This document shows positions 5,967 through 25,607 of a stretch of 30,347 nt of DNA, piece after piece. Position 1 is the stretch's first letter. Each line of letters starts with the position of its first letter. Source of the stretch: a virus; IMG/VR virus record IMGVR_UViG_3300032829_000258, positions 1-30,347 of that record; one strand, given 5' to 3'. The notes beneath the pieces were generated by a model. The model had not been told where the DNA came from, did no database searches, and saw only the letters and a program-made list of their open reading frames with translations. Position numbers and translations under genes: made by a program.

Positions 5967-6440
5967 TTAAACGATGATGCAGCCGGGACCCAGCGTCACG
6001 CCCTGGCCGTACACCGACCACGACGTCTCGGTCACATGAGCAACGCCCCAGGGCAGCCAGTGGCTGCCATCCAGCAGGTGCACCTCGTAGGCGCCCGCCG
6101 GCAGCTCGGCGATGGCCTCTCGCAGCGCGATCAGGCCGTCGCACGGCCCGGCCACCGCCTCCTCGATGTCGCCACCGGGTGGCAGCACGGCAAACGAAGC
6201 GTCCCGGTCCTCGTGCAGGTCGTCCGGATCCACCGGCCGGAGGATGGATGAGTTGGCCTCATCCCAGGCCGCATCCGTCGCGCCCAGGGCGGCAATCACG
6301 TGTTGCAGCCGGCTGTCCATCTCCCGCAACCGGTCCACGACCTCGTCTCGGGGCATCGCCCCCGGCCCGCGAATCTCCCGGAGCGCCGTGCGCACCTCCA
6401 GCAGCTCGGTGAGCATCTCGGCCAGCTTGCGCGTATTCAT
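5967..6440 (-). CDS. hypothetical phage early protein (157 aa)
   Basis: Starts MNTRKLAEMLTELLEVRTAL. I chose this ATG because GGGGAGG lies upstream and it overlaps the previous stop (ATGA). The N-terminal half is probably a coiled coil (residues about 1-55). The C-terminal half looks like a small beta domain (AYEVHLLDGSHWLPWGVAHV...). No family recognised. It is part of the leftward early operon upstream of the ERF gene. Confidence 0.6.
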   Translation of the reverse strand: MNTRKLAEMLTELLEVRTALREIRGPGAMPRDEVVDRLREMDSRLQHVIAALGATDAAWDEANSSILRPVDPDDLHEDRDASFAVLPPGGDIEEAVAGPCDGLIALREAIAELPAGAYEVHLLDGSHWLPWGVAHVTETSWSVYGQGVTLGPGCIIV

Positions 6441-7734: not shown

Positions 7735-7833
7735 CGAGTTCAGAAAGAACTCCCACTCAACCGCAACTGTACAGGATCTCTCCTGCGAGTTGTAGGTCAA
7801 GCGGGCCAGGGGCCGGCCTTGCGACCGCCCCAT

Positions 7834-7874
7834 CGCGCCTTGCGGGAATCGAACCCGCCGCTACCGTCAGGCGC
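7834..7874 (-). other. tRNA-like minihelix (T-arm plus acceptor-like stem), not a complete tRNA
   Basis: On the minus strand GCGGGTTCGATTCCCGC (7842-7858) is a perfect T-arm with a TTCGATT loop, followed by AAGGCGC. The latter pairs at six of seven positions with GCGCCTG (7868-7874), only 9 nt before the T-arm. A CGCG-ATTGTAA-CGCG arm just upstream (near 7876-7890) resembles an anticodon arm, but no D-arm or matching 5' acceptor strand is present. It may be a decayed tRNA, an old attachment-site scar or a tRNA-mimicking RNA. Confidence 0.3.
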
Positions 7875-7928
7875 GCGTTACAATCGCGGCGTGTTTTCCT
7901 CCTTTCGCTGTCTTGAAAGGACCCGAAG

Positions 7929-8153
7929 ATGAACCTTCACTCTTTTGTGGCTTCGGAGGAGATCCGTGTTGATGCCTGCCGGGCCATCTCCGTCGCCATC
8001 GCGAGGATCGTGGCCAGTCCGGAAAAGGTCTGGAGTCCGGAGTCGCTGAAGATCACGGCCGAAGCCCTGGGCGCGGCGATGGCCGCCGGGCATGAGGCCT
8101 TCATGTCTGGACCTCTTCGAAGTAAGCCCGAAGAGCCTTGTGAAGTTCAGTAA
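7929..8153 (+). CDS. small hypothetical protein (74 aa)
   Basis: Starts MNLHSFVASEEIRVDACRAI. AAAGGA lies 6-7 nt before the ATG. Residues about 10-60 are likely helical (ISVAIARIVASPEKVWSPES). It runs convergent to, and overlaps by about 50 nt, the minus-strand gene ending at 8101. No domain recognised; the good ribosome binding site is the main support. Confidence 0.45.
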   Translation: MNLHSFVASEEIRVDACRAISVAIARIVASPEKVWSPESLKITAEALGAAMAAGHEAFMSGPLRSKPEEPCEVQ

Positions 8154-8277
8154 GGTATTCGGCCTGCTGTCTGGCGTTCTGCTTGGGATCGTTGGCGCCG
8201 GCAACAAAGATCCGCCCGGCCTTCACCATCTCCGTTAGCAGGTACAGCGCCTTCTCATTCGCCTCGGATTTCGTCAT
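8101..8277 (-). CDS. small hypothetical protein (58 aa)
   Basis: Starts MTKSEANEKALYLLTEMVKA, in the lower part of a longer open frame. GAGGGG lies 8 nt before the ATG at 8277, which decides the start. It is probably a helical bundle (QQAEYLTELHKALRAYFEEV). It lies between the attachment-site candidate and the leftward terminator at 7683-7734, which likely ends its transcript. Function unknown. Confidence 0.55.
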   Translation of the reverse strand: MTKSEANEKALYLLTEMVKAGRIFVAGANDPKQNARQQAEYLTELHKALRAYFEEVQT

Positions 8278-8319: not shown

Positions 8320-8361
8320 TATGCCCGGGGGGATTTGAACCCTCAACCTTTGGCTCCGGAG
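8320..8361 (-). other. attachment-site (attP) core candidate: 3' half of tRNA-Arg(CCG)
   Basis: On the minus strand the sequence fits tRNA positions 32-73. CTCCGGA (8355-8361) is an anticodon loop with anticodon CCG, then GCCAA (3' anticodon stem), AGGTT (variable loop), GAGGG-TTCAAAT-CCCCC (T-arm, one A.C mismatch), CGGGCAT (3' acceptor strand) and A73. No 5' half (acceptor strand, D-arm, TTGGC stem) precedes it. A tRNA 3' half starting exactly at the anticodon loop, 85 bp from an integrase gene, is the classic form of an att core that restores the host tRNA on integration. The core contains the palindrome CTCCGGAG (8354-8361). Confidence 0.7.
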
Positions 8362-8445
8362 GGTTGTGGTTATTTGTGAGCGCCCGGGACGTTTGGGCGA
8401 TCTGCGGGTTAGGTCTTCAGGGAGACCGACACACCTGGGGATCTG

Positions 8446-9363
8446 ATGATGCATAAACGCCACACATGGGCGGCGTTCGCCGACGACGTGCTTGCCCTGT
8501 ACGCGCCGCCGATCCGCCGCAAAGCGACCTGGCGAAAGCTCGAACACGTCCTGCGTGAGTTTCAGCCGCTGTGCCGCTATTCCGAGGACCTCACGCCCTC
8601 CGTCGTTGCCGCCTGGATCGCGGCCCACCCGGGACGGAGGCCCGCGACCGTCGATTCCTTCTTGCGGAGCTTGCGGGCCGCTTGCAATTACGGGATGTCC
8701 GCAGGGTATCTCCGCGAAAGTCCGTTTGCCTTTCGGTCGCCCCGACACTGGGTTGATTGGAGTGTTGAGCCGCTCCCTCCGGCAGTGCACACCGCCGAGG
8801 AGATCGCCCGGGTGCTGGCGCGGGCTGATTTCGAAGCCCAGGCCGGCCGCTGGCGCAATCTCAGGCTCAGGGCGGTGATTTATACCGCCGCGTTCACGGG
8901 GGCCCGCAAACGCGAGATTCTTGCCGCTTGCGTGGCCGATTTGCAACTAGACCAGGGGCTGATGACGATCCGGCCGAACGCCCGACGGCCGCTCAAGACC
9001 CCGAGCTCGGCCGCGCAGATCCCGCTGGCGCCCCCGCTGGTTGCCGTGCTGGAGGGGTGGGTTGCAATCTGCGGGTCCCCCTGGCTCTTCCCCGGCATCC
9101 GTCGTCAGGGCCCCTGGCTCGAGGGGCCGGCTGGCGCCAAGGCGCTCGACCAAGTCAAAGGCCTGGGATTGCGGGCCGGCGTGCGGGGCCTGACGTTCCA
9201 GAGCTTCCGCCACAGCCTGGCATCGCTGAGCGAGGGGTGGGGAATCGGCGAGCTGGCGCTGCAGCGACTGCTGCGCCATTCGAGCCCGAGGACCCAGGAA
9301 TACTACCGCCACGCGATCCCCGCCGTGCTCCGTGATGTGGCGGCGCGGATCCACTTTCCTTGA
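8446..9363 (+). CDS. int: tyrosine recombinase / phage integrase
   Basis: 305 residues. The N-terminal half (about 1-110) is a helical core-binding domain. The catalytic domain shows Arg154 in TGARKREIL, Lys184 after the beta turn, Arg255-His256 in FQSFRHSLAS, His278 in LLRHSSPRT and Tyr287 in QEYYRH, nine residues after that His as in XerD. The usual His three residues before the second Arg is Gln252, a tolerated variation in some members. The enzyme would recombine attP with the host tRNA gene. It starts at one of two adjacent ATGs (8446 or 8449) after GGGG. It reads away from the tRNA-Arg half-site, as is common. Confidence 0.92.
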   Translation: MMHKRHTWAAFADDVLALYAPPIRRKATWRKLEHVLREFQPLCRYSEDLTPSVVAAWIAAHPGRRPATVDSFLRSLRAACNYGMSAGYLRESPFAFRSPRHWVDWSVEPLPPAVHTAEEIARVLARADFEAQAGRWRNLRLRAVIYTAAFTGARKREILAACVADLQLDQGLMTIRPNARRPLKTPSSAAQIPLAPPLVAVLEGWVAICGSPWLFPGIRRQGPWLEGPAGAKALDQVKGLGLRAGVRGLTFQSFRHSLASLSEGWGIGELALQRLLRHSSPRTQEYYRHAIPAVLRDVAARIHFP

Positions 9364-18046: not shown

Positions 18047-18997
18047 TCAGGTGAACGTCAGGGTGTAGTCTGCCGAGTTCGTCGAGTCGTACTGGTTGGT
18101 GACGGTGAGCGTCTGGAGGAACAGGTCGTTGAGCGCGAGCTGGTCCTCGACCATCGTCAGCAGAGAGTTGGTCTCGAAATTCCAGATCGCGGTGTGCGTC
18201 GTGTTGTTGAGCTCGAACGTGACCGGCGTCTGCACGGTGAGGGCCTCGTACGTCGATCGGTCGTTCGGCGTGACCATGTAGTAATTCTCGGCGACGAGCG
18301 ACGTCGACCGGCCCAGGAGCCGCATGAGCTGGACGTACTGGTTCGTCCAGTACCGCCGGGCGATCACGTTCTTGCACGAGATCTTGAGCGACTGGAAGTT
18401 GGCCCGGGCGCTGGCGATCGTCAGCCCGGAGCTGGCGTGCGTGAACAGATAGGGCCCGGTGGGAAGCTGGGCGTCCGTCGGCGCCGAGGTCGACGGCGGA
18501 CTGGCGAACGCGTTGGGCGTGCTCGCCGAGATGTCGATCGACAGGGCCGCAATCTGGCCGTCCTCGGTGACCTCGAAGTCGTAGCCGTCAACCTTGCAGC
18601 CGGAATAGGACCGCTTGAGGTACGAGCCGTCGGAGAGCTGCACGGCGTGGCACATCCAGGCGCTGGCCAGGTCGCCGGCCGGCTCGGTCGTCGTCCAGGG
18701 CGAGGTCTGCCCGGCGTTGATCCGCGTGCCGCACCAGCCCAGAAGCATTGCCGAATAGGGGCCGGCGTAGAGCTTGGTCGTGAGCCGCCCCTTGAGCTCG
18801 GTCTTGTCGCTCACCCGAAAGGCGTCGATCGCCAGGCCGCCGCCGTAGGGCACGGAGACCATGACTGGCCGCGGCCGCATGGTGAAGGCGTTGCCGCCGT
18901 CGAGCCGGACGTAGAACGCATTCGTGCCGACGGTCGGCGACCCGGTCGGCGTGTTGAATGCGGATTCGGTCTGCCAGTAGAGCCACTCGCGAGCCAT
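18047..18997 (-). CDS. major tail tube-like protein (316 aa)
   Basis: Starts MAREWLYWQTESAFNTPTGS, a typical tail-tube beginning ('...ES.fGT.....'). The sequence is beta-rich throughout with a TFELNN...IWNFETNS region near residue 257-276 and a beta-rich C-terminus. AAGGAGGG stands upstream of the ATG, the strongest site in this part of the operon and consistent with high expression of a major structural protein. It lies between connector/terminator-type genes and the tape measure, as tail-tube genes do. An alternative is another beta-rich minor tail protein. Confidence 0.65.
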   Translation of the reverse strand: MAREWLYWQTESAFNTPTGSPTVGTNAFYVRLDGGNAFTMRPRPVMVSVPYGGGLAIDAFRVSDKTELKGRLTTKLYAGPYSAMLLGWCGTRINAGQTSPWTTTEPAGDLASAWMCHAVQLSDGSYLKRSYSGCKVDGYDFEVTEDGQIAALSIDISASTPNAFASPPSTSAPTDAQLPTGPYLFTHASSGLTIASARANFQSLKISCKNVIARRYWTNQYVQLMRLLGRSTSLVAENYYMVTPNDRSTYEALTVQTPVTFELNNTTHTAIWNFETNSLLTMVEDQLALNDLFLQTLTVTNQYDSTNSADYTLTFT

Positions 18998-23306: not shown

Positions 23307-23991
23307 TGTCACTCCCCCTCATGACCTTCGAGTCGACCATCCGGACCTGGTTGATCCAGGCCCGGTCGTAATCTGCCATGGTCACGGGTGCGATCCGCAG
23401 GTGATGACACTCCACCTTCGGCGCACACACGACCGGAATTTCGAGCTTGCGGAGCCGCAGAAAGAAGCTGTGATCCTCGCTCAGCTCCTCGTAGCGGGCG
23501 AACGGCTTTTCCTTGAGCTCGGTCTTGATCCGGTCAAACACCTTGCGTTTCGCCCAGAGACACCCGCCGCCCGCGGAATCGACGATCATCGCCGTCGCCT
23601 GGCGGTCCCACTCGACGAGCGGATAAAAGCCGTCTTCCAGCCGCCGGTACAGGACCGGACTGTGCGGGTGCTGGCGGAACTGGTACATGCCTACGACCAC
23701 GTCGGCCTCGGTCTGCGTCGCGACGTTGATCAGGCGGGCCAGGAGATCGGGCTCGAACTGGTGATCCGTGTCGAGCTGCAAGAGCCAGTCGCCGCGCATC
23801 TCCTCGACCATCATGTTCCTGGTGACGTCGTGGACCGAGCAGTGCGGGAATCGCGGGTAGTAGATGAACTCGTTCGGCTGGCAGAAGAACTGCTGGTTCC
23901 AGGCCATCATGTCGATGAACGAGTCGACGAACTGCCCCAGGTAGGCCGGGCAGCCGCCCATGCGGGCCACGGTGCCCAGGTATTTGGTCAT
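23266..23991 (-). CDS. GT-A-type (family 2-like) glycosyltransferase
   Basis: About 241 residues from the ATG at 23991, which overlaps the preceding stop (ATGA); an ATG at 24000 is an alternative. WLLQLDTDHQF holds the D-x-D metal/nucleotide-sugar motif (about residues 74-76), ELSEDHSFFLRL near 170 the acidic acceptor-site motif, and VECHHLRIAP near 193 the downstream His motif seen in such enzymes. It would transfer a sugar from a nucleotide donor. Directly after the fusion gene, it probably acts on the same glycan, perhaps decorating the capsid or fibre. Hydroxymethylated-DNA glucosylation is less likely without base-modifying genes. Confidence 0.78.
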   Translation of the reverse strand: MTKYLGTVARMGGCPAYLGQFVDSFIDMMAWNQQFFCQPNEFIYYPRFPHCSVHDVTRNMMVEEMRGDWLLQLDTDHQFEPDLLARLINVATQTEADVVVGMYQFRQHPHSPVLYRRLEDGFYPLVEWDRQATAMIVDSAGGGCLWAKRKVFDRIKTELKEKPFARYEELSEDHSFFLRLRKLEIPVVCAPKVECHHLRIAPVTMADYDRAWINQVRMVDSKVMRGSDNALPESVAATTGV

Positions 23992-25607
23992 ACTGAGCAT
24001 GCGAGAACTCCGTGGCCGTCAAACGGCGGTGCGCCTGTGAAGTCGTAATGAATCGGCTCGACCTTGGTCTCCTTGAGGCCAGCCGCGGCCAGCCACTGGC
24101 GTATCCGGGACAGCGGCACGCGGTGCGTGTGGTAGCCGGGGCTGTCACCGTCGTACATTCGTTTCTCGGCCCCGCCGCTCTGCTCCTCGAAAGTCCGGTG
24201 ATCATCGGGGACCGTCAGCACGATCTGACCGCCCTGGGCGAGCACGTTTTTGGCGTTAAAGAGAGTCCTGATCGCTTCCTCGTCGGTGAAATGCTCGAGC
24301 ACCTCGCCGATCACGACGCTATCGAACGACTCCGGCGGGAAGGGTAGCGGCTCACGGCAATCGTGCAGCACGTCGACCACGTTCTCCCAGCCGCACGGGT
24401 CGGTCTGCTGGATATCGAGATTGACCCCGCCGCGCTGGCCGAACCGGGGAAAGTCGCGGTTGCTGCCGATGTTGAGCACCCGGCCGTTTCCGTGCCGGAT
24501 CTGGAAATCCATCTGACAGCCCCAGACGTCCGTCGCGTATTCCTCGTATTGCCTCGCGATCTTGTCCCAGGTGAACTTGTCGCGGGCCCAGGCCATCATG
24601 CCGGGGCGAATCTTCGCCTGGCGGTCGGCGTCGCGGGCCAGGGCGACCAGCTCGGCGACGTAGTTTGCCTTGACGAGCGGGTCTTTCGGGTCGCCCTCGA
24701 TCCAGGTCCCGTGCCGCACGTTGTCGGCCAGGGCCCAGACGGGCGCCGTGAGCGGAATGGCGCCGAGCGCCTGCGCTTCCATGCACGTGACACAGCTCGT
24801 TTCGGTGAACTTCGTCGGATAGCACCAGATGCCCGCCGACAGGAATTCGCGGTAAAGATCGCGCTGGTTCATGCGGCCGAGCCACGTCGCGCCGGTCTCG
24901 GCGACCAGGGCCTCGCATTCCGCCTTGAGCCGGATGAGCTGCTGGTCGGCCGCGGCCTTGTCGATATTGTTGAAGCCGTACGCCGCACTGAGCTTAAGCC
25001 GCGGCTCGAACTCCCGGGCCCGCTTGAAGATCTTCAGCAAATCGGCCAGGCCGCGGTCGGGTGAGCTGGTGAAGACGACCTTGAACGGGTCGCGTTCAAT
25101 TCCCTCTGCTTCGACCTCCTCGACCAGCTCGACCTTGAGCCCGTTGGAACTCAGGCCGATCTTGCCGTTCATCTCCGGGTATTCGCCCAGGAGGTAGCGC
25201 ACATGGGCATTGCAGAGCCCGATCAGGATGTCGAGCTTCGCCGCCCGCTCGTGCGTCAGGCCCCACGAGGAGGTTGCGGGATAGGCCACGTCCTGGCAGA
25301 CCAGCCAGAGCTTCTGGAACGGGTGCGGATCGGGAAACCGGTCGATGTCCGCGGGACATCGGGAGAGAACCCACATTCCGCGGGCGGTGAAATCCGCTTC
25401 CTCGCACCGGAACCACTTCGCCCCGCCCTTGTCGATGGGCGGGCAGTCGTCGCGGATCGGCGCGTAGACCTTGACGGCGTGACCGAGGCGAGCGAGCCGC
25501 CAGGCCAGCTCGACGACGGCCGTTTCGCTGCCGCCGATGCCCGTGTCGTCGGGCGTGCGATGATCCCACCGCTCGTAATAGAGCGGCGCGTAAAAGTGAT
25601 AGTCCAT
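23988..25607 (-). CDS. fusion of a GT-B (family 4-like) glycosyltransferase and a SAM-dependent methyltransferase
   Basis: 539 residues. N-terminal GT part (about 1-360): TGIGGSETAVVELAWRLARL (22-41) is the acceptor-side glycine loop, and TETSCVTCMEAQALGAIPLT (268-287) is the donor-site E-x7-E segment (E269, E277). C-terminal class I methyltransferase part (about 375-539): RVLNIGSN (376-383) is motif I, NLDIQ its acidic partner, and LPFPPESFDSVVIGEVLEHF (421-440) the post-motif II region. Such methyltransferases cap or trim glycans. GGAG lies 10 nt upstream. The following gene is a second glycosyltransferase. Confidence 0.85.
   Translation of the reverse strand: MDYHFYAPLYYERWDHRTPDDTGIGGSETAVVELAWRLARLGHAVKVYAPIRDDCPPIDKGGAKWFRCEEADFTARGMWVLSRCPADIDRFPDPHPFQKLWLVCQDVAYPATSSWGLTHERAAKLDILIGLCNAHVRYLLGEYPEMNGKIGLSSNGLKVELVEEVEAEGIERDPFKVVFTSSPDRGLADLLKIFKRAREFEPRLKLSAAYGFNNIDKAAADQQLIRLKAECEALVAETGATWLGRMNQRDLYREFLSAGIWCYPTKFTETSCVTCMEAQALGAIPLTAPVWALADNVRHGTWIEGDPKDPLVKANYVAELVALARDADRQAKIRPGMMAWARDKFTWDKIARQYEEYATDVWGCQMDFQIRHGNGRVLNIGSNRDFPRFGQRGGVNLDIQQTDPCGWENVVDVLHDCREPLPFPPESFDSVVIGEVLEHFTDEEAIRTLFNAKNVLAQGGQIVLTVPDDHRTFEEQSGGAEKRMYDGDSPGYHTHRVPLSRIRQWLAAAGLKETKVEPIHYDFTGAPPFDGHGVLACSV

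Follow-up and report, generated by a model that had tools for sequence, protein, structure and literature searches.

Positions 8320-8361 on the minus strand of the window, which is the whole stretch of DNA analysed here and comprises an entire 30,347-bp IMG/VR virus record, can be read with a probability of about 95% as the core of a phage attachment site (attP), which the neighbouring tyrosine integrase would recombine with a host tRNA-Arg(CCG) gene, with exchange in the anticodon loop. Read from 8361 to 8320, the minus strand corresponds to positions 32-73 of tRNA-Arg with the anticodon CCG (CTCCGGA/GCCAA/AGGTT/GAGGG/TTCAAAT/CCCCC/CGGGCAT/A), and C31 (window position 8362) is also compatible with this tRNA. 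The 5' half is missing beside it. ARAGORN found no whole tRNA across the window, and an Rfam scan gave no tRNA at gathering scores; the reading of 8320-8361 as a complete tRNA gene, which the initial annotation had named as the result that would speak against it, was rejected on these searches. The arrangement it had described, a tRNA-Arg(CCG) 3' half near an integrase gene and without its 5' half, is thus confirmed. Against 207 distinct 43-mers from tRNA 3' ends, the best score of the half is 41/43, and five shuffled windows gave zero clusters of 30/43 or more against the same set. These shuffles replaced an earlier control of random 500-bp pieces, 4/60 of which reached 30/43 or more, because the source stretches contained real tRNA genes; the control stretches also hold two matches of 30-31/43 (L187 and L208), neither of which is a known tRNA gene.

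The integrase gene (8446-9363, plus strand) encodes 305 amino acids, and its ATG at 8446, on the strand opposite to the half, is separated by 84 bp from the half's anticodon end. The protein matches PF00589 (E 3.5e-9) and a PHROG integrase (E 5.9e-36). Its predicted structure, at modest confidence (mean pLDDT 66), has a four-helix N-terminal part and a catalytic part. Judging by protein length and domain cover, only core-binding and catalytic parts are apparent and an arm-binding domain is probably absent. The closest solved structures by sequence are Xer recombinases (4a8e, 5hxy and 1a0p; E 2.5e-10 to 2.4e-5), and by fold lambda Int and XerA; searches of the PDB and phage records returned distant integrases only. 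The integrase resembles XerA, XerC and XerD in these sequence matches and in the two-domain layout, but it is phage-encoded and would target a tRNA gene instead of dif. Identity as XerC or XerD was rejected, since the curated NCBIfam cut-offs are far from reached (XerD, 29.3 bits with a cut-off of 329.6; XerC, 24.3 with a cut-off of 335.15), as is that for XerA.

The residues R154, K184, R255, H278 and Y287 are present in the window integrase. The His of the box II HxxR motif is replaced by Gln, and this His is not conserved in the family, whose 21 members all retain the HxxR Arg, the box III His and the Tyr. The box I Arg is replaced by Gly or His in L152, L153, L170 and L171, which form one branch of the integrase tree (support 92/91). 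Although its box I Arg is missing, L170 is located in a prophage with exact att repeats.

As a single query, the window integrase had no match in the virus records. The window head protein found 46 loci there, and an integrase search in 18 of these records detected one in five, most of them outside the family of the window integrase. A profile query of the virus records returned four loci, the fourth of which (L154, 29% identity) was excluded from the counts as too distant. A profile for the genome searches was built from four virus-record integrases, namely that of the window, its nearest homologue G018 (63% identity), L152 and L153 (each 49-50% identical to that of the window). In all four of the close virus-record integrases, a tRNA 3' half lies upstream on the opposite strand. 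The half is Arg(CCG) in G018, where its position and orientation are those seen in the window, Arg(TCG) in L152 and Arg(ACG) in L153. ARAGORN reports a complete tRNA-Arg at the L152 site, probably a half whose left arm resembles that of a tRNA. A further Arg(CCG) half, 41/42 identical to that of the window, lies at 6049-6090 on the minus strand of a 33-kb virus record (L140 in G022), which has a primase-like gene resembling that of the window and in which a scan for PF00589 detected no integrase.

The profile of these four was applied to the planctomycete order of L060, Planctomycetaceae bacterium CP_BE_BS_28, the planctomycete genome with the best-matching tRNA gene. Matches at E 1e-25 or better occur in 10/45 genomes of the order, at 16 places. 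The class was sampled with 248 genomes, 11 of which match at 1e-40 or better; ten are the same genomes of the order, and the eleventh, G070, is outside the order list. The 16 places and the one from the class sample together give 17 genomic members, and in 12/17 the strand opposite the integrase gene carries a tRNA 3' half upstream: Ala(CGC) in three, Arg(TCG), Met(CAT) and Thr(CGT) in two each, and Arg(ACG), Asp(GTC) and Lys(CTT) in one each. The halves were detected by a T-arm pattern, by the copy in an intact tRNA (L175) or by a tRNA library (L171). An upstream half was sought and not found at L179 and L217, a whole tRNA takes its place at L183 and L185, and the upstream sequence of L181 is cut off too short for the search. 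The targets of the family cover at least eight tRNA anticodons, and the cut stays at the anticodon loop.

Integrated relatives show what becomes of such halves. The contig around the element was fetched for 12 of the 17 genomic integrase places, and on 7/12 of these contigs the same 3' half recurs beyond the integrase as part of an intact tRNA gene, 34.4-39.3 kb away (Asp, 34.4 kb; Ala, 34.5; Lys, 35.8; Thr, 36.5; Arg(ACG), 37.3; Met, 38.4; Arg(TCG), 39.3). Of the five contigs with no intact partner, four break off within 30 kb in the direction of the prophage, and the fifth, G049, shows no half. The seven prophages are bounded by exact direct repeats of 42-57 bp, which start 0-2 nt before the anticodon loop (12 nt for Arg(TCG)) and either stop at the tRNA 3' end or continue 2-3 nt past it. 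In these seven relatives with homologous integrases, the tRNA is rebuilt and a 3' fragment is displaced. The Lys prophage, G055:C75, shares with the window the integrase (41%), the major head protein (43%) and eight other proteins; its structural genes are mostly in the order of the window, with a 316-aa one (window 18047-18997) displaced. It is direct evidence that a relative carrying both modules integrates at the anticodon loop. The Arg(ACG) prophage has a primase-helicase like that of the window (41%). In G061 a second whole tRNA-Asp (G061:C4:1586856-1586930) lies 168 bp from the rebuilt one and is either phage-borne or the true attL, in which case the phage half would have three differences.

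By analogy with these relatives, the integrase of the window would recombine attP with a host tRNA-Arg(CCG) gene, and strands would be exchanged within the 7-bp anticodon loop. The loop CTCCGGA (8355-8361, minus strand) is the most likely overlap, or crossover, region, and the repeat starts in the seven prophages are consistent with this placement. The phage-borne 3' half would then join the host 5' half to give a working tRNA gene at one prophage end, and the host's own 3' half would be displaced to the end beside the integrase gene. By carrying a tRNA 3' half, the phage could insert into a tRNA gene without destroying it. In a lysogen, a 58-codon reading frame at window 8101-8277 (minus strand), which begins 42 bp past the tRNA 3' end, would directly follow the rebuilt tRNA gene.

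The host gene was sought through the half itself. The exact 42-mer has no match in IMG/VR or GTDB contigs, and a degenerate 31-mer was therefore used, which matched 84 genome stretches and two virus records. The alignment of the matches has 87 rows, including two from viruses; most of the genomic ones extend upstream as tRNA-Arg(CCG), and ARAGORN calls a whole tRNA-Arg(CCG) at 18 of the 20 genomic loci given to it. The whole tRNA-Arg(CCG) gene of L060 is identical to the half at 41/42; 41/42 is also reached in an Ignavibacteriae MAG (L091), outside the planctomycetes, so the tRNA match by itself does not point to a single phylum. With up to three mismatches allowed, 1/45 genomes of the order of L060 matched, and with a slightly degenerate pattern and up to two mismatches, 1/397 genomes of its class; both are L060's own. 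The planctomycete tRNA-Arg(CCG) identical over 42 bp that the initial annotation foresaw was thus matched at 41/42 at best, and the genome sets searched held neither a lysogen of the window's phage nor an exact 42/42 host tRNA.

The one difference from the L060 tRNA is A42 in the phage and G42 in the host gene. Since the phage half joined to the L060 5' half gives a C28/A42 mismatch, the true host should have U28. The window half was also joined in silico to 80 genomic 5' halves (5/85 genomic rows were omitted for want of a recognisable D-arm or upstream sequence), and ARAGORN recognises tRNA-Arg(CCG) in 69/80 of the chimeras. The best evidence for the host is the integrase family, which is close to order-specific. 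Together with the 41/42 match, it supports the earlier proposal that the target is a planctomycete tRNA-Arg(CCG); we infer that the window's phage itself uses this gene, and its host likely belongs to the order of L060.

Several other tRNA arrangements were observed in planctomycete genomes. Dense tRNA arrays, with up to 31 tRNA genes per 3 kb, occur in genomes of the order of L060 (L156-L164), and displaced tRNA-Arg(CCG) halves occur in other planctomycete MAGs (L072, L097 and L111). G020 has integrase matches near such sequences: on C186 a tRNA-Arg(CCG) half is about 650 bp from one, and on C95 the distance to the complete tRNA-Arg(CCG) gene is about 185 bp.

Locally, the half resembles the integrase-side junction of the integrated relatives, where a half without its 5' part also lies beside the integrase gene. 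It could accordingly be an attR or displaced fragment of an integrated prophage, with the contig a piece of chromosome that holds one prophage end. This is very improbable, however, given that a primase-helicase-like gene and an ERF gene lie to the left of the half, and a head-protein gene with tail and other structural genes to the right, whereas in the integrated relatives the far side of the half falls outside the repeat-bounded element; the source, moreover, is a virus record. Because phage genes flank it on both sides, the half sits inside phage DNA, as expected of an attP in a non-integrated genome. Elsewhere in the window, a phage gene at 23988-25607 (minus strand) matches both glycosyltransferase and methyltransferase families.

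Still less probable is an origin by decay, in which a tRNA gene carried by the phage would have lost its 5' part and the remaining half would play no role in integration. tRNA genes are common in phages, and the window holds a second T-arm-like remnant at 7833-7875 (minus strand), with a perfect T-arm, GCGGG-TTCGATT-CCCGC, and a flanking acceptor-like helix. Yet chance decay is unlikely to have produced the boundary at the anticodon loop, because the half of the window shares that boundary with the remaining halves of the family, and in seven prophages the repeats that have an intact partner begin there as well. The element at 7833-7875 was itself considered as a possible second attP; it matches tRNA 3' ends at 30/43 at best, has a fold z of -1.6 and is absent from the virus records, and is possibly the remnant of an older attP, or chance. 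The reading of 8320-8361 as an attP core is supported by the same arrangement beside homologous integrases and by the integration of seven relatives, whose exact repeats begin at the anticodon loop.

The initial annotation had further suggested that a CTCCGGAG palindrome flanked by AACC/GGTT marks the crossover and the core-binding layout. Both features are present in the window as described. On comparison with L053 and L151, the sequence 5' of the core (8362-8377, minus strand) is a phage-specific arm, and the AACC within it (8368-8371) is common to the window and its nearest relative, L151. Of 17 sites compared, L140 and 16 from the family, three have AACC at -10 to -7 (the window, L151 and L178), and the GGT(T/C) on the other flank is ordinary tRNA sequence. 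The CTCCGGAG palindrome is restricted to the three CCG sites and is present only where the anticodon is CCG. Neither feature was retained as a general core element, a symmetrical core layout is no general trait of the family, and the comparison supports neither AACC/GGTT as a binding arrangement nor a crossover role for the palindrome.

The arrangement in the window corresponds to a known type of site. Of the 3919 candidates in Islander (PMC4383910), 2083 are islands whose site is centred on the anticodon, and 3760 have a 3' fragment. Its subsite 'A' shares with the window a 3' tRNA fragment as the identity block, an anticodon-loop crossover and a tRNA rebuilt on integration. Nothing essential differs; the family of the window is nearly confined to one planctomycete order, with at least eight anticodons. 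According to PMC10865867, mycobacteriophage attP cores typically cover 30-45 bp of a tRNA 3' half; phage Boilgate, for example, has attP immediately upstream of int and a 43-bp core over a tRNA 3' half, with the tRNA rebuilt at attL. The integrases in that source are described as lambda-like with an arm-binding domain, whereas that of the window appears to have core-binding and catalytic parts only.

The same source describes tRNA-dependent lysogeny, in which the core is short (about 10 bp), the host tRNA is not rebuilt and the phage encodes a whole tRNA of the same isotype. This was rejected for the window, in that the 41/42 identity block reaches the tRNA 3' end and most of the chimeras are recognised as tRNA; the 30-kb window, a record that may be incomplete, holds no phage-encoded tRNA. 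What it does hold is an adjoining tyrosine recombinase gene and identity to a host tRNA from the anticodon loop to the 3' end with the 5' half absent. The site is well supported as an ordinary anticodon-loop attP of known type, with an unusually clear comparative series of retargeted relatives. In the literature on planctomycete prophage integrases that was available, in part and largely outside subscription journals, no paper was evidently about this family.

A more speculative and rather doubtful proposal is that this clade of small, seemingly arm-less integrases, in one planctomycete order, shifts its chromosomal target from one tRNA isotype to another (Arg CCG/TCG/ACG, Lys CTT, Met CAT, Asp GTC, Ala CGC and Thr CGT) by swapping the 42-nt half. 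The enzyme might recognise generic tRNA features, with the target read via identity at the anticodon loop. If true, this clade would amount to a naturally occurring series of reprogrammable integrases.

In short, an integration site is predicted for an uncultured phage, and its likely host is narrowed to one planctomycete order. The comparison also yields a set of related integrases whose att junctions are mapped for several tRNA targets in Planctomycetota. This set could reveal what decides the choice of target, and could supply integration vectors for bacteria that are poor in genetic tools.
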